From NCBI GenBank assembly GCA_938045805.1, contig CALIBL010000055.1, forward strand, positions 1 to 64,000: a stretch of DNA of 64,000 bases. The letters are read 5' to 3'. Position 1 is the stretch's first letter. Every line of letters starts with the position of its first letter. The position numbers and the translations under genes are program-made. The stretch comes from an uncultured Rubripirellula sp. (GTDB lineage: Bacteria > Planctomycetota > Planctomycetia > Pirellulales > Pirellulaceae). The notes beneath the pieces were generated by a model. The model saw only the letters and a program-made list of their open reading frames with translations. It was not told where the DNA came from and searched no databases. Below are positions 1 through 13,216 of the stretch, in pieces.

Positions 1-9
1 GAAGCCTGC

Positions 10-690
10 TCACTCTTCAAGTTCCGCGAGTCGCCGCTCCAACGCATCAATACGACTCGTCACCTCCTCCAAACGGGCAACGAGTCTATCAACGCTTTGC
101 AGATTAACATCGCTTTCTGACTTGGCGGCAACGGGATCCGCGGCGTGTTTTTTGTCCAGCCTCGCCTGGACAAATTGTTTCTCATGATTCTGATACAAAG
201 TGTGAGTGAATAGCTGACCGCGACCGGGAGGATTCATCGCCTCAACCAAGCCCTTATGACATAGCTGCTCAATCACCGGCTGTAACGCATTTAAGTCGGC
301 AAAGGGATGCATCCGTGAAGCTCGGGTTCGTATCTCACCAACAGTCTGTGGCCCCCTGAGCAATAACTCAGTCATCACCGCCGATTCTGGGCCATCGATA
401 TCCATCCACTCATAAGCTGCATGTCGATACTTGGTAGCACGACCGCTACCTTGTACTTCGCGAGCAGCTTGAACACTCTTTAATTCATCAAGCGCCAGCA
501 TCGCCTGGTCTTCATCAAGATCCATTTTTGGATCACGATTCGACTTTTGATTGCATGCTGTTACGACTGCGTTAAGAGTCAAAGGGTAGTGATCCGGCGT
601 CGTTTTTGCTTTCTCAACAAGGACCCCAAGAACTCGTCTTGCCGCAGCACTTAGTTGACGCGGGTGACTGGACTCATCATGACTCGACAC
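10..690 (-). CDS. YceH family (DUF480) protein
   Basis: The protein is about 226 residues and matches the YceH/DUF480 family, whose members have two tandem winged-helix domains and no settled biochemical role. The family-typical N-terminal stretch is visible (LSAAARRVLGVLVEKAKTTP, then a conserved ACNQKSNRDP block), followed by a second winged-helix region around residues 105-160 (VMTELLLRGPQTVGEIRTR) and a C-terminal coiled coil (SVDRLVARLEEVTSRIDALE). I place the start at GTG 690, because the TTG that would lengthen it by five codons lies inside a TTGAGGGG segment that works better as the Shine-Dalgarno sequence, about 7 bases before the GTG. The gene stands alone and is divergent from the neighbouring sulfatase. 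The family assignment is firm; the cellular role is unknown. Confidence 0.9.
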   Translation of the reverse strand: MSSHDESSHPRQLSAAARRVLGVLVEKAKTTPDHYPLTLNAVVTACNQKSNRDPKMDLDEDQAMLALDELKSVQAAREVQGSGRATKYRHAAYEWMDIDGPESAVMTELLLRGPQTVGEIRTRASRMHPFADLNALQPVIEQLCHKGLVEAMNPPGRGQLFTHTLYQNHEKQFVQARLDKKHAADPVAAKSESDVNLQSVDRLVARLEEVTSRIDALERRLAELEE

Positions 691-998
691 GGATCCACCC
701 CTCAAGAAGGTTCATGTAATTTGTTTGTTGTGTCATGTACGCGGCGATACCTTAGTGAGATTCCATTCGGAGTCTCACCCAAAATCAACCAAACGTGCTC
801 AAAACTCAGCTTACGAAGAACGCAACGCACGCCTTCCCCTGAAAGTGTTATTATCGTGCCGCGTTTGGGACTTTGCAGCAAGACCAGAAGAGCGGGTGTG
901 ATCCGGAGGCTTCTTCAATCAGTGATCCCTGCGTATCGATCCTGCTTCCAACCAATCACGTGCTGCATCCAATCACTATTTCGTGAAGAAAATTGACC

Positions 999-2717
999 AT
1001 GAGAAAAAGTGTTGTTTCGATAGCCAAAACGCACGTCAGTGAACTCGATACGCCTAACCGGTGCATCAGAATACTGTGGAGAAGCCTGATCGCGTTGCTG
1101 ATGGCATTCAACGCTGAGCAATTGATCGGTGCGAATCCCGAAGATTCTTCAGCGAAGACTCGTCCCCATATCGTCATGGCGTTTGCGGATGACTGGGGAA
1201 AGTATGCCAGCATTTACGGAACAATTTCGCCGGGTGAACTCCATGACGTGATCAGCACGCCGCATTTTGATGAAGTTGCAACCGATGGGATTCTGTTCAC
1301 TAACGCATTCGTGAGCGCTCCCTCATGCACACCCTGCCGAAGTTCGCTACTAACAGGGCAACACTTTTGGAGATGCGGCCGAGGATCGATTCTTCAAGGC
1401 GCCATCTGGGACGGATCGATTCCATCTTATCCACTTGAACTCGAGAAATCCGGATATCGCATTGGCCACACCTACAAGGTTTGGAGTCCCGGTTCCCCGG
1501 CTGACGCGCCTCACGGCGGATCGGCAAGAAAGTATCAAAAACACGGAGGGAAATTCAATGGATTCTCGCAGTACGCAATGCGAAAGGACAACCACGAACA
1601 GGCCAAACAAGAACTGCTAAATGAGGTTCGACAAAACGTCCGCTCTTTTCTTGACTCTGATGAGGATCAAAAACTAGATGGCAATCAACCGATTTGCTAT
1701 TGGCTGGGTCCGACCAACACACATCGAAAATGGATTGCGGGAAGCGGTAAGGAACTGTGGGGTATTGACCCTGATTCACTCCGTGGAAAACTCCCACCTT
1801 ACTTGCCCGACGTACCGGTGGTTCGAGAGGATTTCGCAGACTACCTTGGCGAAGTCATGGCATTTGATGCCGGCTTGGGTGTCTTGATTGAAGAACTCAA
1901 GCGAGTGGGTATCTATGACGAGACTTTATTGGTCGTCAGCGGAGACCACGGAGTTCCTGGTGTTAGCCGTGGAAAGTGCAACCTCTATGACTTCGGAACA
2001 CAGGTACCATTAGCGATACGCTGGCCAAATGGCATTAAGGGAAACTCCAGAGTTGTGGACGATCTGGTCTCGCTTCCCGATCTGGCGCCTACCTTTCTCC
2101 AATCGGCTGGCGTCGAAACCCCCGAAACAATGATCGCAAAGTCTCTATTACCAATCTTTGATCACGGAGGATCGGGAAAAATTGAATCCCATCGCGACGC
2201 AATTTTTACGGGGAGAGAGCGACATGTTGCAGCTGCAAGAGCAGAATTTCGGCCGTATCCACAACGGGCAATTCGCACCTACCAACACCTTTACATCATC
2301 AATTTTGAACCGGAGAGATGGCCAATGGGCACCGGCCCTGGTTATGGATCAAAAGCGAGCATGCCCGACTATCTCAGCCTTCAAGAGAACACTTTCGCTG
2401 CCTTCGGTGACCTCGATGCTAGCCCCACCAAAGCGTGGATCGTTACTCGCCGTGAAGAATCACCGAAATACTTCGACTATGCAGTCGGTCGCCGGCCACA
2501 ACGAGAACTTTATGACCTTGCCGTAGATCCACACTGCATGAACAACCTTGCAGATCAGGAAGGCTCCGCCCAGCTCCAAAACTCACTTCACGAGCGGCTT
2601 ATCAAGGAAATGCGCAGTACGGGTGATCCGAGACTTGCCAATCCGGTCCCTTTTGAAATGCCACCTTTTACGGACGCTTTTCAAAAATCGAAGCGGGCAC
2701 CGCAGAAAAACAAATAA
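999..2717 (+). CDS. Type I sulfatase, exported
   Basis: This is a sulfatase of the alkaline-phosphatase superfamily that hydrolyses sulfate esters, probably on sulfated polysaccharides outside the cytoplasm. The metal-binding start (HIVMAFADDWGKYASIYG) follows an N-terminal hydrophobic segment (LWRSLIALLMAFNA). The formylglycine motif is C-T-P-C-R at residues 110-114, with Cys110 as the residue to be converted to formylglycine. A second metal region is seen as VVSGDHG. Length is 572 residues, normal for the family. A TTG two codons upstream (993) is in frame, but ATG 999 is preferred. It ends 7 bases from the converging DciA-like gene. The substrate cannot be read from sequence. Confidence 0.9.
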   Translation: MRKSVVSIAKTHVSELDTPNRCIRILWRSLIALLMAFNAEQLIGANPEDSSAKTRPHIVMAFADDWGKYASIYGTISPGELHDVISTPHFDEVATDGILFTNAFVSAPSCTPCRSSLLTGQHFWRCGRGSILQGAIWDGSIPSYPLELEKSGYRIGHTYKVWSPGSPADAPHGGSARKYQKHGGKFNGFSQYAMRKDNHEQAKQELLNEVRQNVRSFLDSDEDQKLDGNQPICYWLGPTNTHRKWIAGSGKELWGIDPDSLRGKLPPYLPDVPVVREDFADYLGEVMAFDAGLGVLIEELKRVGIYDETLLVVSGDHGVPGVSRGKCNLYDFGTQVPLAIRWPNGIKGNSRVVDDLVSLPDLAPTFLQSAGVETPETMIAKSLLPIFDHGGSGKIESHRDAIFTGRERHVAAARAEFRPYPQRAIRTYQHLYIINFEPERWPMGTGPGYGSKASMPDYLSLQENTFAAFGDLDASPTKAWIVTRREESPKYFDYAVGRRPQRELYDLAVDPHCMNNLADQEGSAQLQNSLHERLIKEMRSTGDPRLANPVPFEMPPFTDAFQKSKRAPQKNK

Positions 2718-2724
2718 TGGGACA

Positions 2725-3075
2725 TCACCGAGACTGAATCCGAAAGCGAAGGTCACTCACTTTACTCTCTGGAAAAGCTTTGACGATCGCCTGCAGGATC
2801 TCTCGCTTTCGGAAGTTTAGTTCCTGAAGAGTGACCGAATCCGTCGCGAAGATATGCAGCTTGCCAGCCTTGAGATTTCCGATCTCCACGGCGTCCTTAA
2901 GACCCTCACCTAAGATTTCTGCAACCACCTCGGACATCGCTTCATTCACGCTCACCTGAGCATAACCACGACGAGCGAGGAGCTGATTGACCCATGAACT
3001 AATCGGGCGGATGGACGTCTCACGTCCTTTTTCAGTTTCTCCGCGGGAATTTGGTTTCTTCTTGGATGGGGTCAT
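2725..3075 (-). CDS. DciA-like DUF721 protein
   Basis: This is a 116-residue DUF721 protein. The family includes DciA, the replicative-helicase operator of bacteria that lack DnaC/DnaI loaders. The family core is visible from about residue 30 to 105: a helix-rich part (WVNQLLARRGYAQVSVNEAM), then the strand-rich part with LKAGKLHIFATDSVTLQEL and FRKREILQAI, matching the usual 'L..g.L.v.v.ss.w..eL' pattern. The N terminus is basic and low in complexity. The start is ATG 3075. It converges on the sulfatase gene with 7 bases between stops and shows no operon partner. The family call is good; the helicase-loading role is inferred from DciA. Confidence 0.75.
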   Translation of the reverse strand: MTPSKKKPNSRGETEKGRETSIRPISSWVNQLLARRGYAQVSVNEAMSEVVAEILGEGLKDAVEIGNLKAGKLHIFATDSVTLQELNFRKREILQAIVKAFPESKVSDLRFRIQSR

Positions 3076-3333
3076 GATCTTTCAAGAATTGTGTTGCCGA
3101 CGCGATTCAGCTTAGCATCTATCTATCTTTCCTCCCACTATCATGCGTAAAACCGTGAGGAATGAGGTCAATGTGGTTGCATTTACCGGCCTTGGAAGGT
3201 TGAATTCCGAGATTGTGAGAATCGAACCGTTGCGAGATCAGTCAGTTTGCAATGAAGCCGAATCATCACCTTGGAACAATCAATCGATCACGGTACCAAA
3301 CCGGTAACGATCTGCTGTTCGTGATCCCGACAA

Positions 3334-3828
3334 TTGAGTGAATCGACCTTGAACGCTCCTCCCGATACGTCCTTACCACCTGAACCGCTTCTCGTCATTG
3401 GCTGGCGAGAATGGGTAAGTCTTCCACAGATTCGTATTAGGCGTATTAAAGCCAAGATCGATACGGGGGCTCGTTCTTCATGCTTACACGCTCCAATCAT
3501 CGAGACCTTCCAAGTTGACGGCCAACTGCACGTTCGCTTCTCAGTGCAACCCATCCAGCGCAATGAAGATTTCTCGTTGACCTGTGAAGCAAGAGTCCAT
3601 GATCAACGTTTAGTTCGGAGCTCTAACGGTGAAGCCTCGGAGAGGTATGTGATTCAAACCAACGTAAAATGGATCGACCAAACTTGGCCAATTGAACTGA
3701 CTCTTGCTGATCGCTCTGAAATGGGCTTTCGCCTCCTACTCGGAAGAGAAGCGATTCGAGGAAAAATGCTTGTGGACACGGCGCGATCATACTTGGGAGG
3801 AAAACCAGAATTTCGGAAAAAGAAATAA
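3334..3828 (+). CDS. rimB: RimB-like retropepsin-fold protease (Zn_protease/DUF785)
   Basis: This 164-residue protein belongs to the family annotated as ATP-dependent zinc protease (PF05618), which has a retropepsin-like fold and includes RimB of the Pseudomonas rimABK operon. The family hallmark is IKAKIDTGARSSCLHA, with the putative catalytic Asp43-Thr44-Gly45 triad; near the C terminus a second family motif is FRLLLGREAIRG. The only usable start I find is TTG 3334; no ATG lies upstream of the conserved WREWVSLP block, so a non-ATG start is likely. The gene precedes the RimK-like ligase by about 100 bases on the same strand, and the pair is a known association. Its likely partner is the RimK system, where RimB is thought to act on the ligase product. 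Confidence 0.85.
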   Translation: MSESTLNAPPDTSLPPEPLLVIGWREWVSLPQIRIRRIKAKIDTGARSSCLHAPIIETFQVDGQLHVRFSVQPIQRNEDFSLTCEARVHDQRLVRSSNGEASERYVIQTNVKWIDQTWPIELTLADRSEMGFRLLLGREAIRGKMLVDTARSYLGGKPEFRKKK

Positions 3829-3927
3829 CAGGCGCTAGCGATATTCATCAGGCAGATTATCAAATAACTTCCGGACTGTTTTTCCCTTTATTGCATTCAT
3901 ATTCTCCTTTCAGTTATCACTTCAAGT

Positions 3928-5136
3928 ATGAAACTAGCCATCTTGTCTCGCAGCTTGGATTGCTATAGTACACGTCGTCTCAAAGAGGCAGCCGTTGGAC
4001 GTGGTCATGCTGTTAAGGTTCTCGATACACTTCGCTTCTCCATCGACCTCGCAAAAGGGGAGCCGGATCTTTTTTACCGCAGCAAACTCCTAAGTCACTA
4101 CGATGCCATCATTCCACGTATTGGAGCATCGGTCACTTATTTTGGCACAGCGGTGGTTCGGCAATTTGAGCAGATGGATATCTTCTCCGTAGCATCCTCA
4201 GCCGGCATCGCCAACTCACGTGACAAACTGCGATGCCTCCAGATTCTAAGTCGGCATCAGATTGGGATACCGGAGACCACCTTTGTTCGTGAAAAACGTG
4301 ATGTCTTGCCTGCTATTGAAAGAGTGGGTGGGGTGCCAATCATCATCAAACTTCTTGAGGGCACACAGGGAGTTGGTGTGATTCTGGCCGAAAGCGTTAA
4401 AATCGCTGAAGCCATCATCGAGACGCTGCAGAGCACAAAACAAAACGTCTTAATTCAGAAATTTGTATCCGAAAGTAAAGGACGAGATATTCGTGCTTTC
4501 GTGATCGGGGATCGCGTTGTGGCTGCCATGCGGCGTGTCGCACAGGGACAAGAGTTTCGCAGCAATGTTCACCGTGGTGGACGCACCGAGCCGATGTTGT
4601 TGGATGAAACCTATTGCGAGACAGCGGTTCGTGCTGCACAGATCATGGGACTCAGGGTAGCCGGCGTCGACATGCTCGAAGGAATTGATGGGCCTCAGGT
4701 GATGGAAGTCAATTCATCGCCGGGTTTGGAAGGAATTGAAACCTGCACTCAGCTCGATATAGCAGGCGCGATTGTCGATTATGTCGCTGCGCAAGTTGAT
4801 TTCCCTGAAGTCGATTTGCGACAGAGACTAACCGTGAGTCGTGGTTATGGAGTTTCGGAGCTCTTGATTCCCGAGGGTTCGGAGTTTGTTGGAAAAACCA
4901 TTGATGAATCAGGGCTGCCAGAACTGGACATCAATGTTTTAACGCTCTACCGAGGCTCCACAGTGATCCCAAACCCAAGACTAAAACGCTCCTTGGAACC
5001 TCAGGACCGACTGCTGTGCTTTGGAAAATTGGAGGCAATGCGAGGTCTCATCCCAGAAAAAACACGACGCCGACGACGTCCTAAATTGCAACAACTCTCC
5101 AGCCAAATATCGGTGTCAGATGTCAATAATCCCTGA
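3928..5136 (+). CDS. rimK: RimK-type ATP-grasp glutamate ligase fused to TrkA-C/RCK_C-like domain
   Basis: RimK enzymes add glutamate to a C-terminal carboxylate (ribosomal protein S6 in E. coli) using ATP. Residues 1-300 carry the family: MKLAILSRSLDCYSTRRL at the start, the PRIGASVTYFGTAVVRQFE block, ATP-grasp lysine region (VPIIIKLLEGTQGVGVIL), IRAFVIGDRVVAAMRR, and the metal/ATP end motif VMEVNSSPGLEGIE. RimK proteins are usually about 300 residues, while this one has 402. Residues 309-375 (SELLIPEGSEFVGKTIDES to DRLLCFGKLEAM) fit the TrkA-C/RCK_C ligand-binding domain. A basic tail follows. It sits between rimB and the aspartoacylase-like gene, overlapping the latter by 17 bases. The ligase call is strong; substrate and ligand of the extra domain are not known. 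Confidence 0.92.
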   Translation: MKLAILSRSLDCYSTRRLKEAAVGRGHAVKVLDTLRFSIDLAKGEPDLFYRSKLLSHYDAIIPRIGASVTYFGTAVVRQFEQMDIFSVASSAGIANSRDKLRCLQILSRHQIGIPETTFVREKRDVLPAIERVGGVPIIIKLLEGTQGVGVILAESVKIAEAIIETLQSTKQNVLIQKFVSESKGRDIRAFVIGDRVVAAMRRVAQGQEFRSNVHRGGRTEPMLLDETYCETAVRAAQIMGLRVAGVDMLEGIDGPQVMEVNSSPGLEGIETCTQLDIAGAIVDYVAAQVDFPEVDLRQRLTVSRGYGVSELLIPEGSEFVGKTIDESGLPELDINVLTLYRGSTVIPNPRLKRSLEPQDRLLCFGKLEAMRGLIPEKTRRRRRPKLQQLSSQISVSDVNNP

Positions 5137-6256
5137 CCATCATTGGAGAGCACCCGCGAAGTCCATTGATACATGGCGTGGCAAAGAGATCCCTCGGAAC
5201 GAGCGTAGCAACGTCTTCCTGCCTGTTAGCGAGAGCTATAGCGGAATCTCCCTTAAAATTCCAATTCAGATTCATCGAGGTCAAGAAGACGGACCGGTGG
5301 TCTTCGTTACCGCTGCGCTACATGGTGATGAACTTAATGGCACCGGTGCTATTCGCGAATTGATTTGCGACGAGAACTTAAAACTACGACGTGGCGCACT
5401 GATCCTCGTACCCATTCTGAACCTTCTCGCATTTGATAGACACAGTCGTTATCTACCGGACCGGCGTGATTTAAATCGTTTCTTTCCAGGCTCCAACAAA
5501 GGTAGCCTTACCGCTCGAATCGCACATAAGATCTTTAGCGAAATCGTTTCGAGGGCGTCTCTTGGTATCGACCTCCATACCGCCTCGGTGCGTCGTACAA
5601 ATTATCCGAACGTTCGTGCCGATCTTTCAAACCCTCTGGCTAAACAGTTGGCGATTGAATTTGGAAGCGAAGTCATTTTGTCAAACCCTGGTCCAGATGG
5701 TTCGCTTCGCACCGAGGCAACAAAACTGGGAGTACCAACCATCGTGATGGAAGGCGGGGAAGTCTGGAAAGTTGAACCGGTAATCGTTGCGACTGCGGTA
5801 CGCGGAATTAAAAATATTCTCTGCAGCCTACAAATGATTGACGGAGTCGTGGATCGCCCTGACACGCAGGTTGTTATCAAAACGACCAAGTGGATACGAG
5901 CCGATCGTGGAGGATTTTTACAGTTCCATGTCAGGCCAGGCCAAATCATTGAACAACACCAGCCTCTAGCCACCAACACAAGCCTCTTGGGGCAGGAAAA
6001 AAATATACTGGTGTCTCCTTTTACCGGTGTCGTACTCGGAATGACTACCCTCCCAGCGGTCAGCCCCGGCGAACCGATTTGCCATATCGGACAACTTGAT
6101 CACGACAGTCACGGATTAGAACTACTCGAGAATCGCGCCGAGGCGAAAAGCTTGGAACGAAGGACGGTGAAAGATCTCGCATCGAACGTTCTGGTCAAAT
6201 CGATGGATACCGGTCCGCCAACGTCGAACGATTCGAAATCAAACCTAAAAGAATAA
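5120..6256 (+). CDS. Succinylglutamate desuccinylase/aspartoacylase-family zinc hydrolase
   Basis: This 378-residue protein belongs to the AstE/ASPA branch of M14-like zinc carboxypeptidases, which cleave amide bonds next to acidic amino acids. The zinc site is visible as AALHGDELNG (His and Glu ligands) and GIDLHTAS (second His). A further conserved segment is TIVMEGGE. The last third (about residues 250-345) forms a beta-rich barrel-like domain seen in related proteins. I chose ATG 5120, which overlaps the rimK stop by 17 bases; the longer reading frame upstream is inside rimK. Given its place right after the glutamate ligase, it may remove the residues RimK adds, but that is inference. It ends 7 bases from the converging mntR. 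Confidence 0.85.
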   Translation: MSIIPDHHWRAPAKSIDTWRGKEIPRNERSNVFLPVSESYSGISLKIPIQIHRGQEDGPVVFVTAALHGDELNGTGAIRELICDENLKLRRGALILVPILNLLAFDRHSRYLPDRRDLNRFFPGSNKGSLTARIAHKIFSEIVSRASLGIDLHTASVRRTNYPNVRADLSNPLAKQLAIEFGSEVILSNPGPDGSLRTEATKLGVPTIVMEGGEVWKVEPVIVATAVRGIKNILCSLQMIDGVVDRPDTQVVIKTTKWIRADRGGFLQFHVRPGQIIEQHQPLATNTSLLGQEKNILVSPFTGVVLGMTTLPAVSPGEPICHIGQLDHDSHGLELLENRAEAKSLERRTVKDLASNVLVKSMDTGPPTSNDSKSNLKE

Positions 6257-6263
6257 GCGGTCG

Positions 6264-6689
6264 TCACGAAATCGATGCGTTGGTTTTACTCCAGTTCACA
6301 AAGCATCGAAGTGTAGCCGGACTCACATGGTGTTCGATTCCCTCAGCATCAATCGCTGCAGTCTGCGGATCAACGCCAATCGCCAGTAAAAATTGATACA
6401 CAATCTCGTGCCGTTCTCGACATCGCACCGCCAGGCGAGCACCTTTCGCTGTTAGACCCACAGGCTTGTAGGGCTCCGTTTTAACTAAGCCTTCATTCTG
6501 CAAACGACCGACAGTTCGATTCACCGTGACATGACTCACGCCAAAATGTTTAGCCAAATCGACAACTCGGCACGAGCCATGCGAGGCAGCGATCTCCGCT
6601 ATTGCCTCAACGTAATCTTCTGCTAACTCCGTCGAATGATCGTTTCGCGTTCTGAGATGTGGAAGCGACTGCTTGGCATGATCAGACAA
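6264..6689 (-). CDS. mntR: MntR-type DtxR-family metal-dependent repressor
   Basis: The 141-residue product closely resembles proteobacterial MntR, a Mn(II)-responsive repressor. Features in order: ELAEDYVEAIAEIA (first metal-binding helix with the Asp/Glu pair), a winged helix (LAKHFGVSHVTVNRTVGRLQNEGLV), GLTAKGARLAVRCRERHEIV, and the C-terminal metal motif DAEGIEHHVSPATL. I start it at TTG 6689, preceded by GGAG 7 bases away; a frame reading back to GTG 6815 would run through the promoter and both operator repeats, so it cannot be the true start. It is divergent from the ABC importer genes and lies next to twin operator-like repeats, which suggests control of both itself and the importer. 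Confidence 0.92.
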   Translation of the reverse strand: MSDHAKQSLPHLRTRNDHSTELAEDYVEAIAEIAASHGSCRVVDLAKHFGVSHVTVNRTVGRLQNEGLVKTEPYKPVGLTAKGARLAVRCRERHEIVYQFLLAIGVDPQTAAIDAEGIEHHVSPATLRCFVNWSKTNASIS

Positions 6690-6765
6690 AGAACCACTCC
6701 ATGCTTCGGATGGATGACAACGGTATACGCCACATCGATTATGCGGGTCCGCAATGAATAATGAA

Positions 6766-6801
6766 TTGACAGAATTGTAGCCACAGCTACAATCTACACA
6801 A
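6766..6801. promoter_or_regulatory. Overlapping divergent promoters of mntR and the importer operon
   Basis: On the + strand TTGACA (6766-6771) and TACAAT (6788-6793) are 16 bases apart, a near-consensus sigma70-type promoter toward the ABC importer. On the - strand TTGTGT (complement of 6796-6801) and TACAAT (complement of 6774-6779), again 16 apart, point toward mntR. The two promoters overlap, and the first inverted repeat fills the space between them, so one bound repressor could block both. Elements were found by eye. Confidence 0.6.
6774..6793. promoter_or_regulatory. MntR-box-like operator 1
   Basis: A perfect inverted repeat ATTGTAGC-CACA-GCTACAAT (8-4-8). The geometry and the inner TAGC/GCTA core match the MntR box known from enterobacteria (half-sites ending ATAGC and beginning GCTAT). 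It covers the -10 elements of both divergent promoters, the expected site for a repressor. Confidence 0.7.
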
Positions 6802-6804
6802 GAC

Positions 6805-6826
6805 ATTTGTAGCACGTGCTACAAAT
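6805..6826. promoter_or_regulatory. MntR-box-like operator 2
   Basis: A 22-base perfect palindrome with half-site ATTTGTAGCAC. It contains the same 8-4-8 core as operator 1 (TTTGTAGC-ACGT-GCTACAAA). The two centres are 32 bases apart, about three helical turns, so two dimers would sit on the same face of the DNA. It lies just downstream of the expected transcription start of the importer operon. Confidence 0.7.
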
Positions 6827-6883
6827 TGCCTGATCGCAGCGAAGCCTAATTCCTGTTTGCTCTCAACGCCAAGCCGCAGCACC

Positions 6884-7888
6884 GTGCCGAACACCATCCA
6901 AACCAATAAAAGTCCTCAAACTTTGTGGATCTCCGTCGCCGTTTTCCTCCTGATAACCATCGCGGGCTGCTCAGATAACCAGCCAAGCCTCCAAGGCGAC
7001 CGGGACATTAAAGCGGACACCATCAACGTCTTAGCGACAACAGGAATGGTTGCCGACTTGATTCGGAAAGTGGGCGGCTCGCAGGTCGACGTTACCCAAC
7101 TGATGGGTTCCGGTGTTGACCCTCATCTCTACAAACCAAACCGTGACGACATCCAGAGCATCCTAGACAGTGACATTGTTTTCTACAGCGGCTACCACCT
7201 TGAGGGAAAAATGACATCGACCCTCAATCAATTGGCATCTCAGAAGCGAGTCATTGCGATTGCCGAACACATAAATGAGGACCAGCTGATTCAAGATCAA
7301 CAAGGTCAGGTGGATCCTCATCTTTGGATGGATATTGAATTATGGTCGAAGCTTTTGCCGCCGATTGCTGAAGAATTAATAAAAATCTCTCCCGATCACG
7401 CCACCGAATTCCGCGACAATGCTTTGGAAGCTGTTGACGAACTTCAACAACTTCACAAGTTTGGGATTGACGCGATCTCAACCATTCCAGAATCAAAACG
7501 GGTTTTAATCACCTCTCATGACGCTTTTCAATACTTCGGGCGTGCCTATCAAATTGAAGTCGCAGGTATTCAAGGACTCTCCACGGAATCGGAGGCAGGA
7601 CTGCAGCGAATCAATGAGTTGGTGGACATGATTGCCTCACGACAAATCTCTGCGATCTTTGTTGAAAGTAGTGTACCTGCCAAGAACATCGACTCATTGA
7701 TTGAAGGTGCGAGTGCTCGATCGCACCAAGTGAAAATTGGCGGTGAACTCTATTCAGATGCAATGGGTGACGTCTCGAGTGAACAGGGAACTTACATCGG
7801 AATGATGGCCCACAATCTGAAAACGGTGGTTCAATCTCTCGGTGGAACAGTAGAACCGTTCTTACCAGATGATCCTTCAACAAAATAA
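6884..7888 (+). CDS. Metal ABC importer substrate-binding lipoprotein (MntA/TroA/PsaA type)
   Basis: This is a cluster A-I metal-binding protein that captures a divalent metal at the membrane. The N terminus is a lipoprotein signal (VAVFLLITIAGC, lipid-attachment Cys29). Metal ligands can be traced as His in GSGVDPHLYKP, His in VDPHLWMD, Glu in GLSTESEAG and Asp in LYSDAMG; this His-His-Glu-Asp set is typical of Mn/Fe binders such as PsaA and MtsA. There is no His-rich loop of the kind seen in ZnuA. The start is probably GTG 6884; TTG 6857 is an in-frame alternative. It is the first gene of a four-gene operon with its ATPase and two permeases, opposite mntR, which supports manganese as the substrate. 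Confidence 0.9.
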   Translation: MPNTIQTNKSPQTLWISVAVFLLITIAGCSDNQPSLQGDRDIKADTINVLATTGMVADLIRKVGGSQVDVTQLMGSGVDPHLYKPNRDDIQSILDSDIVFYSGYHLEGKMTSTLNQLASQKRVIAIAEHINEDQLIQDQQGQVDPHLWMDIELWSKLLPPIAEELIKISPDHATEFRDNALEAVDELQQLHKFGIDAISTIPESKRVLITSHDAFQYFGRAYQIEVAGIQGLSTESEAGLQRINELVDMIASRQISAIFVESSVPAKNIDSLIEGASARSHQVKIGGELYSDAMGDVSSEQGTYIGMMAHNLKTVVQSLGGTVEPFLPDDPSTK

Positions 7889-7922
7889 TATTCCCTTTGA
7901 ACTCATCGGAAGCCACTGATCG

Positions 7923-8720
7923 ATGCAATCCTTGGACAACGAAACCCCAGCGATCTCAGACGCGCCACTTTGCGTTCAAGACCTTACGGTTGCTTACCAT
8001 CGAAAGCCCGTACTGTGGGATGTAGGATTCGAAATACCGCGAGGATCATTGGTTGGAATCATTGGCCCCAATGGTGCCGGGAAAAGCACTCTCCTTAAAG
8101 CCATCATGGGCATTGTGCCTTTGGCATCTGGAAGGGTGCAGATCTTTGGTAAGCCGTATCGCAAATCCAGAGAATCCGTCGGTTACGTTCCGCAAAAAGA
8201 AAGTGTGGATTGGGATTTCCCCGTCACGGTATTGGATGTGGTGACGATGGGTTTGTACAAGAAAATTGGTTGGTGCCGCCCAGTGGGGGTCAAGCATCGC
8301 ACACTAGCTCTTCAGGCTTTGGAATCTGTTGGCATTGCAGATCTCGCGAATCGCCAAATCAGCGAATTATCAGGCGGGCAGCAACAGCGAACCTTTCTAG
8401 CGAGAGCATTGGTTCAGGACGCTAATCTCTACCTGATGGACGAACCGTTTGCTGCCGTCGATGCGGCCACGGAAAACGCAATCATCAGCATGCTCCGAAC
8501 CATGAAGGCAAACGGTCGCACAACGCTCGTCATTCATCATGATCTCCAAACGGTACCTGCGTACTTTGACCACGTGATCCTGCTAAACATGCGAGTGGTG
8601 GCTGACGGGCCGGTCGAAAAGGTTTTTAACGAAGACAATCTCAACAAAACCTACGGAGGGCGCCTAACACTACTTGATGAGGTCTCCGAAGCGATGAGGC
8701 GACGGGAGCGATCTCTATGA
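7923..8720 (+). CDS. Metal ABC importer ATP-binding protein (MntB/ZnuC/TroB type)
   Basis: This 265-residue ATPase powers metal uptake on the cytoplasmic face. Seen in order: Walker A GPNGAGKST at residues 48-56, Q-loop region VPQKESVDWDFP (a signature of metal importers of this class), ABC signature LSGGQQQR from residue 149, Walker B ending in Asp173-Glu174 (YLMDEPFA), and an H-loop IHHDL near residue 206. It starts 34 bases after the binding-protein gene, and its stop overlaps the ATG of the next gene in an ATGA, so translation is probably coupled to the permease. Confidence 0.95.
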   Translation: MQSLDNETPAISDAPLCVQDLTVAYHRKPVLWDVGFEIPRGSLVGIIGPNGAGKSTLLKAIMGIVPLASGRVQIFGKPYRKSRESVGYVPQKESVDWDFPVTVLDVVTMGLYKKIGWCRPVGVKHRTLALQALESVGIADLANRQISELSGGQQQRTFLARALVQDANLYLMDEPFAAVDAATENAIISMLRTMKANGRTTLVIHHDLQTVPAYFDHVILLNMRVVADGPVEKVFNEDNLNKTYGGRLTLLDEVSEAMRRRERSL

Positions 8721-10186
8721 TCGCACAAGGTGCAAATGATGCTTTGATACTCACCTCAATCCACCACATCACTCAGTTGGTGGGGCGGATTGGCCTTTCC
8801 TCATGGGAGCAAGCCTACCGACTCCTCTCTTTTCAGGATCACAATACCCGCGTGGTTCTCCTTGGAACTGCAATGCTTGGCTGTGCTGCGGGTGTCGTGG
8901 GCGTTTTCACTCTGTTGCGAAAGCGAGCCCTCATGGGGGACGCGATTAGTCACGCCACTCTCCCCGGCATCGCGATCAGCTTCCTCATCGCAACGCATCT
9001 TGGCTGGAATGAGAAATCACTTCCCATGTTACTCGCGGGAGCAACCCTCACTGGATTGCTTGGAGTCTTAGCAATTCTGGCAGTGCGAAACTGGACAAGG
9101 ATCAAAGAAGATACCGCTTTGGGGATTGTCTTGAGCGTATTTTTTGGTGCTGGCATTGCCTTACTTGGAATCATCCAACAGATGCCACGCGGGCATGCTG
9201 CCGGTCTAGAGTCCTTCATCTTTGGCAAGACAGCCTCGATGATTTCAAATGATGCCATCCTGATTAGCGTTGCTTCTTTTTTGTGCCTCAGCTTTTGCCT
9301 TCTATTTTTCAAGGAACTTAGGCTGCTCTGCTTCGACGAAACGTTCGCAGGTTCACGAGGTTACCCGACCACGACGCTTGATTTGATGCTGATGGGTTCT
9401 GTGGTGGTAATTTCCATTGTGGGACTTCAAGCAGTGGGACTAATCATGGTAGTCGCGTTATTGGTCATCCCTGCTGCCTCCGCTCGATTCTGGACGGATA
9501 ACCTTGGAAAAATGTCGGCGATCTCCGCGTGCATCGGAACCGTCAGTGGCGTTTGCGGTTCATCACTCAGCGCTATTTATCCACGTCTGCCCTCTGGGGC
9601 AATGATTGTTCTATTCTGTGCGGGATGCTTCTCCCTGAGCTTGACTGCCGGTTCACGTCGGGGACTGGTCATTCGCTCCATCCGAAGAATCAGAATGAAA
9701 CGATCCATAGCAAAGCAGCACTTTCTGAGAACCATGTTTGAACTAACAGAACATCGGGAAGCATCGTTTCAGAACAATGAGATCTCGATGGAAAAACTTG
9801 CCTTGGCTCGACCCTGGAACTCAAGAGAACTCAGCAATACCATTCGTCGGGCAACGCATGCTGAGTGGGTAACACGCATTGGCTCCCAAATACGCCTGAC
9901 CAAAAAAGGCAGAATCGAGGCCGAACGGTTAACAAAGGAGCATCGTCTTTGGGAATTATTTCTCATTCATCACGCCGATTTCGCGCCAAGTAGAGTCGAT
10001 CGCGAAGCTGACCACATTGAACATGTCCTCGAGCCGGAAATCGTTGCGGAACTTGAGTCGCTGCTATCTGAAAATCAAAAAACCATTCCAGAAAGTCCCC
10101 ACCTCTTATCGCATTCTGTCACCGCGGAGTTAAAAGAAGCTCAGTTGTTTGGTGAGCCCACCCATTCTTCAGAGAACGAGGGTTGA
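8717..10186 (+). CDS. Metal ABC importer permease fused to a DtxR/MntR-like domain (first of two)
   Basis: Residues about 45-325 are an ABC-3 type permease with 7-9 hydrophobic segments and the family stretch RKRALMGDAISHATLPGI and VGLIMVVALLVIPAA. Ordinary permeases stop near 290-300 residues; this one has 489. From about residue 335 it continues as a DtxR-like region: a winged helix (HFLRTMFELTEHRE ... IRLTKKGRIEAERLTK) and the dimerisation/metal helices with His409 and Glu413 in HRLWE, then Asp432-His433-Ile434-Glu435-His436. These occupy the positions of metal ligands in DtxR and MntR. Chlamydial YtgC carries such a domain (YtgR) that is released as a repressor. Whether cleavage occurs here is unknown. 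It overlaps the ATPase gene by 4 bases. Confidence 0.9.
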   Translation: MIAQGANDALILTSIHHITQLVGRIGLSSWEQAYRLLSFQDHNTRVVLLGTAMLGCAAGVVGVFTLLRKRALMGDAISHATLPGIAISFLIATHLGWNEKSLPMLLAGATLTGLLGVLAILAVRNWTRIKEDTALGIVLSVFFGAGIALLGIIQQMPRGHAAGLESFIFGKTASMISNDAILISVASFLCLSFCLLFFKELRLLCFDETFAGSRGYPTTTLDLMLMGSVVVISIVGLQAVGLIMVVALLVIPAASARFWTDNLGKMSAISACIGTVSGVCGSSLSAIYPRLPSGAMIVLFCAGCFSLSLTAGSRRGLVIRSIRRIRMKRSIAKQHFLRTMFELTEHREASFQNNEISMEKLALARPWNSRELSNTIRRATHAEWVTRIGSQIRLTKKGRIEAERLTKEHRLWELFLIHHADFAPSRVDREADHIEHVLEPEIVAELESLLSENQKTIPESPHLLSHSVTAELKEAQLFGEPTHSSENEG

Positions 10187-10191
10187 ACAAT

Positions 10192-11520
10192 ATGAACTCG
10201 TTCAATTGGCAACTAGATGGATGGATCATTTTAACCGCCGCGGTTTGCGCGGTCGCGTGCTCATTGGTTGGCAATTTTCTCGTCCTCCGTCGCATGAGCA
10301 TGTTGGGGGACGCCATCACTCACGCGGTGTTGCCCGGTCTCGCAGTTGCATTTGTTGTGACGGAAAGTCGATCCAGCTTTCCAATGTTTGTTGGCGCAGC
10401 GGTTGTGGGGCTATGCACCGCTTTCTTCACGGAATGGATCAGAACCAGTGGACGCGTGGACGAAGGTGCTTCGCTTGGTGTGGTCTTCACCACATTGTTT
10501 GCATTGGGGCTTGTTCTGATTGTCCATTGGATTGACCGAGTTGACTTGGATGCAAACTGTGTGCTGTATGGTTCAATCGAATTGACTCCACTTGAGACCG
10601 TCCAAATCCTGAGTTTTCATGTTCCCAGAGCTTTTCTAATACTGAGTATCGTGCTTGGACTGAATACGCTTGCGATTGTTTGTTTTTATAAGGAGCTAAA
10701 ACTCGCTTCATTTGATTCTGGTCTAGCGTCGAGTGTTGGATTTTCCCCCGCCATCATTCACTACGCTCTAATGACTCTGGTCGCGATCACCGCGGTCGCA
10801 AGCTTTGAAAGCGTGGGAAGCGTTTTGGTCGTAGCCATGATGGTCGTCCCCCCCGCGACGGCATTTTTGTTGACACGCCGACTATCTCAAATGCTAATCG
10901 TTAGCGCTCTGATTGCCTCGCTCTCAGGTATTTTTGGACATCTTTCGGCCATCGCCATTCCAAGTTGGTTTGGTTTCCGAAGCACTTCAACTGCTGGCAT
11001 GATGGCCGTTACAGCGGGACTCTTATTCATGTTGGCAGCCATGTTCGCGCCTCGAGGCGGTATTGTCATCAGAATGTGGCACCAAATCTTGCTTGGCTTA
11101 CACATTCTGGCCGATGACATCGTCGCGTTACTCTACCGAGTCGAAGAAAAGCAGGCGAGAACGGAGTCAGAAGCACACTGGATCCGCGAAGTTCTGCTGT
11201 GCAATCGCCTGGCATTCATGGCGGTCAAGAGGTGGCTGTTGCTCCGTGGAGAATTGAGTATTGAAGGCAATAAACTCTCACTAACAGAACAAGGTCACCT
11301 TCGCGCGCAGAACCTTGTGCGGTCTCACCGTCTTTGGGAGCAGTACCTCTTGGACGAGGTTGGCCTCGATCCAAGTCGAATTCATCCCCAAGCTGAGAAG
11401 ATGGAGCACTACACCGATAAAAGTCTTAGACAAAAACTACACCAGGCGATCGACAACCAAGAGGTTGATCCCCATGGTAGTCCGATACCTGTGGAGCGTT
11501 CCAAAATTCATAAAGACTAG
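10192..11520 (+). CDS. Metal ABC importer permease fused to a DtxR/MntR-like domain (second of two)
   Basis: The 442-residue protein is the second ABC-3 permease of the importer, with the family motif RRMSMLGDAITHAVLPGLA and VLVVAMMVVPPATAF. After the last membrane segment (about residue 290) comes a DtxR-like region to the end: a degenerate winged helix (REVLLCNRLAFMAVKRWLL, then LSLTEQGHLRAQNLVRSH) and a well-kept metal/dimerisation part with His379 and Glu383 (HRLWE), and Glu402, Glu405 and His406 (EKMEH), followed by DPHGSPIP, which matches the end of DtxR. I use ATG 10192, with GAGGG ten bases upstream; TTG 10183 overlaps the previous stop. Having both permeases fused is unusual and suggests metal sensing at the transporter or a released regulator. 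Confidence 0.9.
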   Translation: MNSFNWQLDGWIILTAAVCAVACSLVGNFLVLRRMSMLGDAITHAVLPGLAVAFVVTESRSSFPMFVGAAVVGLCTAFFTEWIRTSGRVDEGASLGVVFTTLFALGLVLIVHWIDRVDLDANCVLYGSIELTPLETVQILSFHVPRAFLILSIVLGLNTLAIVCFYKELKLASFDSGLASSVGFSPAIIHYALMTLVAITAVASFESVGSVLVVAMMVVPPATAFLLTRRLSQMLIVSALIASLSGIFGHLSAIAIPSWFGFRSTSTAGMMAVTAGLLFMLAAMFAPRGGIVIRMWHQILLGLHILADDIVALLYRVEEKQARTESEAHWIREVLLCNRLAFMAVKRWLLLRGELSIEGNKLSLTEQGHLRAQNLVRSHRLWEQYLLDEVGLDPSRIHPQAEKMEHYTDKSLRQKLHQAIDNQEVDPHGSPIPVERSKIHKD

Positions 11521-11620
11521 CTGCTTCTTGACCGCTTCTGAAATCCAAACACGTTATCGTAAGCAGACGGTTGAGTGTTCATCAGCTACGCAATTCCTTG
11601 ACACATCCATCACGAGACAC

Positions 11621-13216
11621 ATGCCAACATTAGCCTCACGATTCTTAGGTTTGTCGTTTGTATTTGCTATGGTTCCGGTAGCTCAATCTGGTCAACCGGA
11701 GCAACCCAATGTTTTGTTGATCATGGCAGATGACCTTGGCTACTCCGACCTTGGATGCTATGGCGGCGAGATCGACACACCCAACCTCGACAAACTTGCT
11801 GGAAACGGCATCCGCTTCTCACAGTTTTACAACACGGGGCGATGTTGGCCGACTCGAGCATCATTGCTAACCGGATATTACCCCCACGGAATCCGGCGGG
11901 ACAAAATTGATGGAACTCAAAGTGGAAATCGTGGCAAGCGGCCTCGGTGGGCACCGTTGATCGTTGAGACTTTGCGTCAGAGAGGTTATCGAAGTTACCA
12001 CACGGGAAAGTGGCATATTGATGGGATGCCAATCGCCTCAGGTTTTGATCGCTCGTACTACCTCAAGGATCAACATCGTTTCTTCAACCCAACATTACAT
12101 TGGAAGGATGACCAACCGTTACCCGCTGTTCCGAAAGGCACAGAGTTTTACGCCACGAACGCTTTGGGCGACCATGTCGTGCAATGCATGGAGGATCATT
12201 TTCTCCAACAAACCAATGCACCTTTCTTTCATTATCTTGCGTTCGCTGCACCACATTTCCCGCTGCAGGCACTTCCTGAAGACATTGAAAAGTACCGCAC
12301 GCGATACCAAGTCGGCTGGCAAAAGATACGTGAAGAGCGATGGAATCGAATCGAGGCACAAGGACTCGTTCATGGGCGACTTTCTGATCCGATGGTTGAT
12401 ATCGGTCCTCCCTACGATTTTCCGGAAGCCCTAGAAATATTAGGTCCTGACGAAATCAATCGTCCGGTTCTATGGGAGTCCCTGACACCATCGCAACAAG
12501 AATTCCAAGCAAACAAAATGGCGATACACGCCGCGATGATCGACCGCATGGATCAGCAAATTGGCCGAATTATTCAATGCCTGAAAGATCATCAACAATT
12601 TGATAATACGATCATCTTTTTTCTTTCCGATAACGGCGCTAGCGCAGAGATCATGGTGCGAGGAGATGGACATGACCGTGACGCGCCCATGGGATCTGCA
12701 GATAGCCACCTTTGCCTCGGTCCGGGATGGTCAACCGCCTCGAATACACCCTTTCGTTATCACAAAACATGGACTCACGAGGGTGGCACTGCTACGCCAT
12801 TGATTGTTCACTGGCCGAAGGGAATACAAGCGCGGGGCGAGGTCAGGGAGCAAGTTGGTCATGTCATTGATCTTTGGCCGACAATTCTTGAATTGACTAC
12901 TGTGGAAAAAAATACAGATCTCGATGAATCGAATCATCCTCGCCCCGGTCGAAGCCTCACGCCGTTCTTCGATCGCGCCGACACTCAGCCACGAACCCTT
13001 TGGTGGTTGCACGAGAAAAACCGTTCCCTTCGCTCCGGCGAATGGAAGATCGCAGCCACAGCTGCTTCACCTGACTGGGAACTCTACAATTTGAACGATG
13101 ATCGAACTGAAACAAACGACCTCATAAATGAACACCCAAAAATTGCAGAGAACCTTATCAAACAATGGGAAACGATTTTAAAACAACAATCCGATTGGGC
13201 AGTTGAGTCAAATTAA
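11621..13216 (+). CDS. Type I sulfatase, exported
   Basis: This 531-residue sulfatase has a clear signal peptide (FLGLSFVFAMVPVAQSGQ), the metal-binding beginning NVLLIMADDLGYSDLGCYGG, and the formylglycine motif C-W-P-T-R at residues 75-79 within GRCWPTRASLLTG. Other family pieces are YHTGKWH, a lysine/histidine site, and FFLSDNGAS. Although the open frame runs far upstream into the permease gene, ATG 11621 is the natural start because the signal peptide begins there. It follows the importer operon by 100 bases but has no visible functional tie to it. The substrate is unknown; close arylsulfatase-like relatives act on aryl or sugar sulfates. Confidence 0.93.
   Translation: MPTLASRFLGLSFVFAMVPVAQSGQPEQPNVLLIMADDLGYSDLGCYGGEIDTPNLDKLAGNGIRFSQFYNTGRCWPTRASLLTGYYPHGIRRDKIDGTQSGNRGKRPRWAPLIVETLRQRGYRSYHTGKWHIDGMPIASGFDRSYYLKDQHRFFNPTLHWKDDQPLPAVPKGTEFYATNALGDHVVQCMEDHFLQQTNAPFFHYLAFAAPHFPLQALPEDIEKYRTRYQVGWQKIREERWNRIEAQGLVHGRLSDPMVDIGPPYDFPEALEILGPDEINRPVLWESLTPSQQEFQANKMAIHAAMIDRMDQQIGRIIQCLKDHQQFDNTIIFFLSDNGASAEIMVRGDGHDRDAPMGSADSHLCLGPGWSTASNTPFRYHKTWTHEGGTATPLIVHWPKGIQARGEVREQVGHVIDLWPTILELTTVEKNTDLDESNHPRPGRSLTPFFDRADTQPRTLWWLHEKNRSLRSGEWKIAATAASPDWELYNLNDDRTETNDLINEHPKIAENLIKQWETILKQQSDWAVESN

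Follow-up and report, generated by a model that had tools for sequence, protein, structure and literature searches.

The closest described relatives of the protein analysed here are the RimK ligases of Pseudomonas (PDB codes 7qyr and 7qys), which belong to the RimABK system and comprise a Rimk_N domain and an ATP-grasp core. In the available parts of PMC11957791, RimB is described as stimulating the synthesis of poly-α-glutamate by RimK and trimming glutamylated RpsF, and a RimBK hybrid enzyme is reported. Known RCK_C domains, such as those of KhtT, KtrA/KtrC, MthK and BusR, are parts of K+-transport systems or of a transcription repressor.

The 64,000-nucleotide stretch of an uncultured Rubripirellula sp. 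analysed here, termed the window, encodes a RimK that combines both types of module. It shares with Pseudomonas RimK the Rimk_N and ATP-grasp core, the key residues and a rimB partner gene but, in contrast to the Pseudomonas enzymes, whose response to c-di-GMP needs no such tail, it carries a C-terminal RCK_C domain. This domain has the same profile and, in the predicted model, the same fold as those of KhtT, KtrA/KtrC, MthK and BusR (Z about 10-11), yet it is joined to a ligase. The RimBK hybrid is likewise a RimK fused to another domain and tied to RimB; there, however, the fused partner is the RimB protease on the N-terminal side (as in hybrids L209 and L210, below), whereas the window protein carries an RCK_C tail. 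The genes are arranged in the order rimB, rimK, AstE/AspA-like gene, with the following features:

3334..3828, + strand: rimB-like gene for a retropepsin-type aspartic peptidase, 164 aa, DTG motif (PF05618, Zn_protease, E 3.3e-36)
3928..5136, + strand: RimK with RCK_C tail, 402 aa (ORF and Pfam)
3928..4209, + strand: Rimk_N pre-ATP-grasp domain, residues 1-94 (PF18030, E 1.2e-35)
4219..4785, + strand: RimK ATP-grasp domain, residues 98-286 (PF08443, E 2.6e-56)
4855..5040, + strand: TrkA_C / RCK_C domain, residues 310-371 (PF02080, E 5.5e-9; fold matches)
5056..5103, + strand: basic C-terminal extension, residues 377-392, KTRRRRRPK region (charge conservation)
5120..6256, + strand: AstE/AspA-like hydrolase (PF24827, E 5.9e-35)

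Domain architecture and predicted fold

The rimK ORF begins with ATG at position 3928 and its stop codon ends at 5136, no other ORF of at least 80 aa being found on either strand within this interval. All three Pfam domains exceed their curated cut-offs, the TrkA_C match scoring 36.2 bits against a cut-off of 27 in the whole protein and 39.7 bits with the isolated tail, and no RCK_N domain was found by Pfam. The protein passes TIGR00768 (241 bits, cut-off 143) and lies below the cut-off of NF007764, the S6--L-glutamate ligase equivalog (313 against 331 bits). Its best solved relatives by sequence, the RimKs of Pseudomonas and E. coli, match residues 1-287 only, and the Pseudomonas proteins, with chains of 309-314 residues, therefore lack the RCK_C tail. 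As judged from these matches, the window protein is a complete RimK (Rimk_N plus ATP-grasp) followed by a genuine TrkA-C/RCK_C domain. The first-pass annotation had read the ORF as a RimK of 402 residues with a TrkA-C/RCK_C-like tail at residues 309-375; length and tail are borne out, the bounds being correct to within a few residues of the Pfam match with the basic extension beyond, and the tail was recovered both by the PF02080 search proposed there and by structure prediction. The tail joins RimK at the C-terminal end of the core; a region that includes this end influences the ATPase activity of the P. syringae enzyme (PMC10092738, available in part). The extension that follows the RCK_C domain has a net charge of at least +4 in 69 of 78 relatives.

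TrkA_C was matched by all 34 tails of the window and 33 same-order relatives at E ≤ 0.1, and by 52 of 52 tails at E ≤ 0.001 in a cross-phylum alignment of the window and 51 of the 78 available tails, picked by us for spread. An AlphaFold2 model of the full-length protein from 40 sequences presented a mean pLDDT of 82.6, with ten-residue blocks over residues 311-370 at 85-93, and a tail-only model from the 52 cross-phylum sequences a mean of 77.9. The full-length model aligns with RimK structures across 283-292 columns. Foldseek TM-scores of the tail model (normalised by query length) were 0.64-0.76 to MthK, KhtT, KtrC and BusR among the matches listed, and VIA-align superposition on the RCK_C domains of KtrA (4xtt), MthK, KhtT and BusR gave Z scores of 10.3-11.4 over 76-85 residues, among them 11.3 for the RCK_C of S. 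aureus KtrA (81 residues) and 10.9 for KhtT (76 residues). In these models the tail adopts the RCK_C fold. Replacement-site differences between the window tail and five relatives (0-0.20) are far below the silent-site differences (0.61-0.89, silent sites being near saturation), and the tail is thus under purifying selection. Five tail columns are invariant across the 52 sequences, including N349 and P350 beside the usual pocket.

The ATP-grasp domain of the window protein retains K100, K141, R189, D248, E260 and N262, and all 50 tailed cores have the catalytic K100, K141, D248, E260 and N262 without exception. Seven glutamate-contacting residues are named for P. aeruginosa RimK in the available part of PMC10092738, and the window protein has all seven; S7, S14, R64, S68, R189 and N262 are kept in 46-50 of the 50 tailed cores and R8 in 27. 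Two positions separate the tailed cores from 29 tailless ones, six long-branch or hybrid rows having been removed from this comparison and retained in the tree described below: position 251 is Glu in 50/50 tailed cores and Arg in about 97% of the tailless, while position 178 is Lys or Arg in 42/50 tailed cores and Glu in 26/29 tailless.

Distribution and single branch of tailed RimKs

A scan of genome contigs yielded 588 confirmed loci, and the tail is present in 79 of the best 80, one (L127) reaching a contig end with no tail visible and another (L122) being cut within the tail; since loci were ranked by their resemblance to a query alignment with a tailed protein at its head, 79/80 is no measure of tail frequency among RimKs, which was gauged instead from actinobacterial and gammaproteobacterial samples. 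The titles of carriers among these 80 include Planctomycetes, Gammaproteobacteria, Desulfopila, several Actinomycetota, Acidobacteria, Verrucomicrobia, Omnitrophota, Rhodothermaeota, a Deltaproteobacterium and Oligoflexia, the closest titled relative of the window protein being from a Rubripirellula bin (97%). Isolates or complete chromosomes with the tail represent at least five phyla (Planctomycetes Pla163, Microbulbifer, Desulfopila, Phycicoccus and Pelagicoccus).

In 99 genomes of relatives, a set biased towards the genus and family of the window, the tailed form occurs in 29 (own genome included; G014, cut at a contig end, is counted and G087, with residues 1-151 only, is left out) and a tailless RimK of 48-53% identity in six, weaker ATP-grasp matches of at most 36% identity not being taken as RimK. 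No genome among the matches listed for this sample has both forms. A one-off or assembly fusion was rejected in view of the 29 tailed genomes of this sample and of the isolates and complete chromosomes among the carriers. A second, diverged tailed paralogue (~70% identical) was observed in five related genomes of the 29 (L032, L033, L034, L035 and L036); the 8-8.5 kb examined around it yielded no RimB match.

Among 296 actinobacterial genomes 16 have a tailed and 11 a tailless RimK, one of them both, whereas among 274 gammaproteobacterial genomes three are tailed and 120 tailless, the three among them. The tailed RimK is an added paralogue in these three, because each also has a tailless RimK, of the ordinary kind among those scanned in G599 and G658 and a RimB-RimK hybrid in G101 (Microbulbifer). 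At E ≤ 1e-50, identity is 74-100% for tailed against at most 54% for tailless proteins in the actinobacterial genomes and 81-100% against at most 57% in the gammaproteobacterial ones, with no intermediate values in either sample. In a maximum-likelihood tree of residues 1-290 from 49 tailed loci plus the window and 35 tailless proteins, all rows picked by us, one branch (97/86) divides tailed from tailless cores, and 95% of the 200 bootstrap trees show a single change from one form to the other. A single origin is probable on this unrooted tree, in which the bootstrap had not fully settled and four tailless end branches are long. The taxonomic survey suggested in the first-pass annotation thus revealed a distinct RimK branch across several phyla. 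A search of the open-licence literature retrieved no paper joining RimK with RCK_C, ATP-grasp with TrkA_C, or ribosomal protein S6 modification with TrkA-C, and none combining three of RimK, Zn_protease, aspartoacylase and ATP-grasp, although domain databases may well list the architecture; the available part of PMC11957791, on RimB and RimK, has no mention of TrkA, RCK, Actinobacter or Planctomyc.

Gene neighbourhood

The start codon (TTG) of the window's rimB-like gene is uncertain, and RimB is the best NCBIfam match of its product at 127 bits, below the 200-bit cut-off. The ATG at 5120, our choice of start for the AstE-like gene, makes it overlap the end of rimK by 17 bases; the nearest solved relatives of its product are 3cdx and DoeB. 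As in the RimABK system, rimB adjoins rimK here, and it lies near rimK in 42 of the 58 loci for which both flanks span 2.5 kb; among these an AstE-like gene lies near 28, both genes near 24 and neither near 12; gene order and strand vary. Elsewhere in the window, a DciA-like gene (2725-3075, PF05258) lies on the opposite strand, divergent from rimB. By translations only, a DtxR/MntR-like regulator stands opposite a metal ABC transporter set at 6264-11520 (binding protein, ATPase and two permeases seemingly with regulator-like C-terminal parts), and two sulfatase-like ORFs occur at 993-2717 and 11315-13216.

An all-against-all comparison of flanking ORFs placed MscS in 9/80 and CorA in 7/80 loci, one each being confirmed by Pfam. 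Both families, together with S6 and the DAC and GGDEF domains discussed below, were surveyed in 50 of the 80 genomes, picked by us for spread. Relative to an expectation based on the gene count of each family in each genome and on random placement, MscS lies in the flanks of 8/49 loci (0.42 expected, P 1.5e-8; six loci, P 3e-6, when three Microbulbifer count once) and CorA in 5/49 (0.12 expected, P 1.6e-7), P values that apply to chosen families because both were picked after the flanks had been inspected. The 49 are without L135, which replaced L136 after its neighbours had been seen; with it the counts become 9/50 and 6/50, while L111, with CorA nearby, is outside the 50. In L126 and L135 rimK, rimB, astE-like, mscS and corA all lie on one strand. 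The link may nevertheless be to a shared stress island, because MscS-CorA pairs also occur away from rimK in some tailed genomes, and inspection by eye of the ORFs of positions 1-12000 found neither gene beside the window's rimK.

Tailless RimKs on Salinivibrio and Vibrio plasmids (L204 3546-5960; L208 3001-6267) were seen beside RimB-like, AstE-like and mechanosensitive-channel genes, and because these keep similar neighbours the ionic setting cannot specifically account for the tail. RimB-RimK hybrids were noted in a Microbulbifer genome with a tailed RimK and on a Thioclava plasmid (L210 285-1601, L209 2446-3885). Glutamine synthetase lies near five Microbacterium-like loci (by eye), all of one genus and so not counted as a link, and glutamate dehydrogenase in the flanks of 5/80 loci, three of them Microbulbifer.

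Substrate, ligand and proposed role

The explanation that we prefer, at a probability of roughly one half, is that the tailed RimKs form a distinct branch of poly-α-glutamate ligases in which the RCK_C domain regulates or assembles the enzyme in an ionic or osmotic setting. The protein is predicted to be an ATP-dependent α-L-glutamate ligase that would make poly-α-glutamate, free or on a protein end. RCK_C domains would most likely pair between subunits within a RimK tetramer and tune the ligase to an ion or osmotic cue or to a small ligand, which would be no cyclic dinucleotide, or at least none common to all members. The neighbouring RimB may trim or stimulate, and the AstE-like hydrolase may remove or recycle the product. 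This proposal is weakened by the minority of loci that MscS and CorA adjoin, the window not among them, and by the 12 of 58 loci with neither RimB nor an AstE-like gene nearby. K05844 presumably denotes rimK. It is among the genes commoner in brackish than in marine genomes in the available part of PMC10219603, the tailed form not being distinguished there. RloA enzymes, secreted relatives of RimB, are needed under hypo-osmotic stress, a loose parallel because rimB deletion showed no genetic interaction in that setting (PMC12239564, available in part).

The reading of the protein as an ordinary S6 (RpsF) glutamylase docked on the ribosome by its tail would agree with its identity of up to 54% to the P. 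aeruginosa enzyme across the structural alignment, and with the 99 relatives, where, with no genome among the matches listed pairing the tailed form with a tailless one of ~50% identity, the tailed protein could fill the usual role. S6 itself was found in 49 of the 50 surveyed tailed genomes, all but G116 (the frames of G108 and G123 were re-read and that of G147 rests on length agreement), and ends in Glu in 12 of the 49, the window's S6 having an acidic end (...EETEEATAEA), though its last residues are ATAEA. The other 37 have different ends, the S6 of Nocardioides, Knoellia and Phycicoccus stopping directly after the folded domain; ordinary RimK is kept in two of the three tailed gammaproteobacterial genomes and a RimB-RimK hybrid in the third; and the window protein scores below the S6-ligase equivalog cut-off. 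With S6 ending in Glu in so few tailed genomes, S6 is doubtful as a general target, to judge, indirectly, from these sequences, and we regard this alternative as rather unlikely. A tail that needs no ligand and only holds subunits together through RCK_C dimerisation, or serves as a docking module, is the alternative to which we give most weight, though we still consider it improbable: BusR RCK_C is dimeric without ligand (PMC8517857, available in part), RimK is a tetramer (PMC10092738, also in part) and most relatives have a strongly basic stretch after the domain, but the five invariant columns, N349 and P350 included, exceed what dimer packing would obviously need.

The first-pass annotation had fairly presented RCK_C domains, often ligand-binding regulatory modules, as binders of small ligands, and had pointed to cyclic dinucleotides. 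Its statement that Pseudomonas RimK is influenced by c-di-GMP agrees with the stimulation described in the available parts of PMC7343187 and PMC10092738; as a hint to the tail it fails, since the RimK that responds is tailless. Thus, c-di-GMP as the tail ligand was rejected as very improbable, although GGDEF proteins occur in 38 of 50 tailed genomes: the remaining 12 lack them, and no c-di-GMP binding was seen for BusR, which binds c-di-AMP through its RCK_C domain, in the available part of PMC8517857. The same source names KhtT, KtrC, the S. aureus KtrA RCK_C and BusR, all four among the top solved matches to the cross-phylum tail profile, as c-di-AMP-binding, and the tail might accordingly be imagined as a c-di-AMP receptor like KtrA, KhtT and BusR, coupling glutamylation to c-di-AMP where it is made. 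In the alignment a proline of the pocket coincides with the invariant P350, and a DAC domain is encoded in the window's genome and in 29 of the 50. However, the narrower same-order profile best matches a KtrA entry (7zp9) and the Ca2+-gated MthK, and in alignments with KtrA and BusR, from which alone the pocket residues were read across a one-residue gap, the polar residues rimming the BusR pocket are not conserved, and the phosphate-binding histidine probably has an acidic residue, E/D332, close to its position. DAC was not found in 21 of the 50 genomes, including 11 of 11 gammaproteobacterial ones, a class that we assign by title or family name and partly assume, and L077 ('Proteobacteria'), while L097, titled 'uncultured proteobacterium', has it. 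Neither DAC nor GGDEF, the two synthase domains surveyed, was found in five; many surveyed genomes are metagenome bins in which an absence may be a gap, but isolates of Parahaliea, Aquisalimonas, Agromyces, Microbacterium and Curtobacterium and three of Microbulbifer lack DAC, and those of Agromyces, Microbacterium and Curtobacterium lack GGDEF too. Whether or not the genome has DAC, the tails share their strongly conserved columns (e.g. N349, P350, D360 and G366), and so do those of the five genomes with neither domain. The earlier link between the tail and cyclic dinucleotides is therefore unsupported, the tail being conserved throughout; general sensing of cyclic dinucleotides across the family is improbable, and c-di-AMP reception limited to lineages with DAC, the window's among them, seems unlikely.

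A poly-α-glutamate ligase with a regulating or assembling RCK_C domain remains the preferred reading. In a broader and more tentative form, the tailed RimKs would be a widespread class of poly-α-glutamate synthases apart from ribosome modification, in which an RCK_C domain taken over from K+ regulation reads the ionic or osmotic state and sets the production of an anionic polymer, RimB and the AstE-like hydrolase reverse the reaction, and MscS and CorA cooperate. The joining of a ligase to a K+-regulator domain would link the chemistry of glutamate polymers or protein tails to ion homeostasis in several phyla, and suggests for the RimK-family protein of some genomes a purpose other than the modification of ribosomal protein S6.
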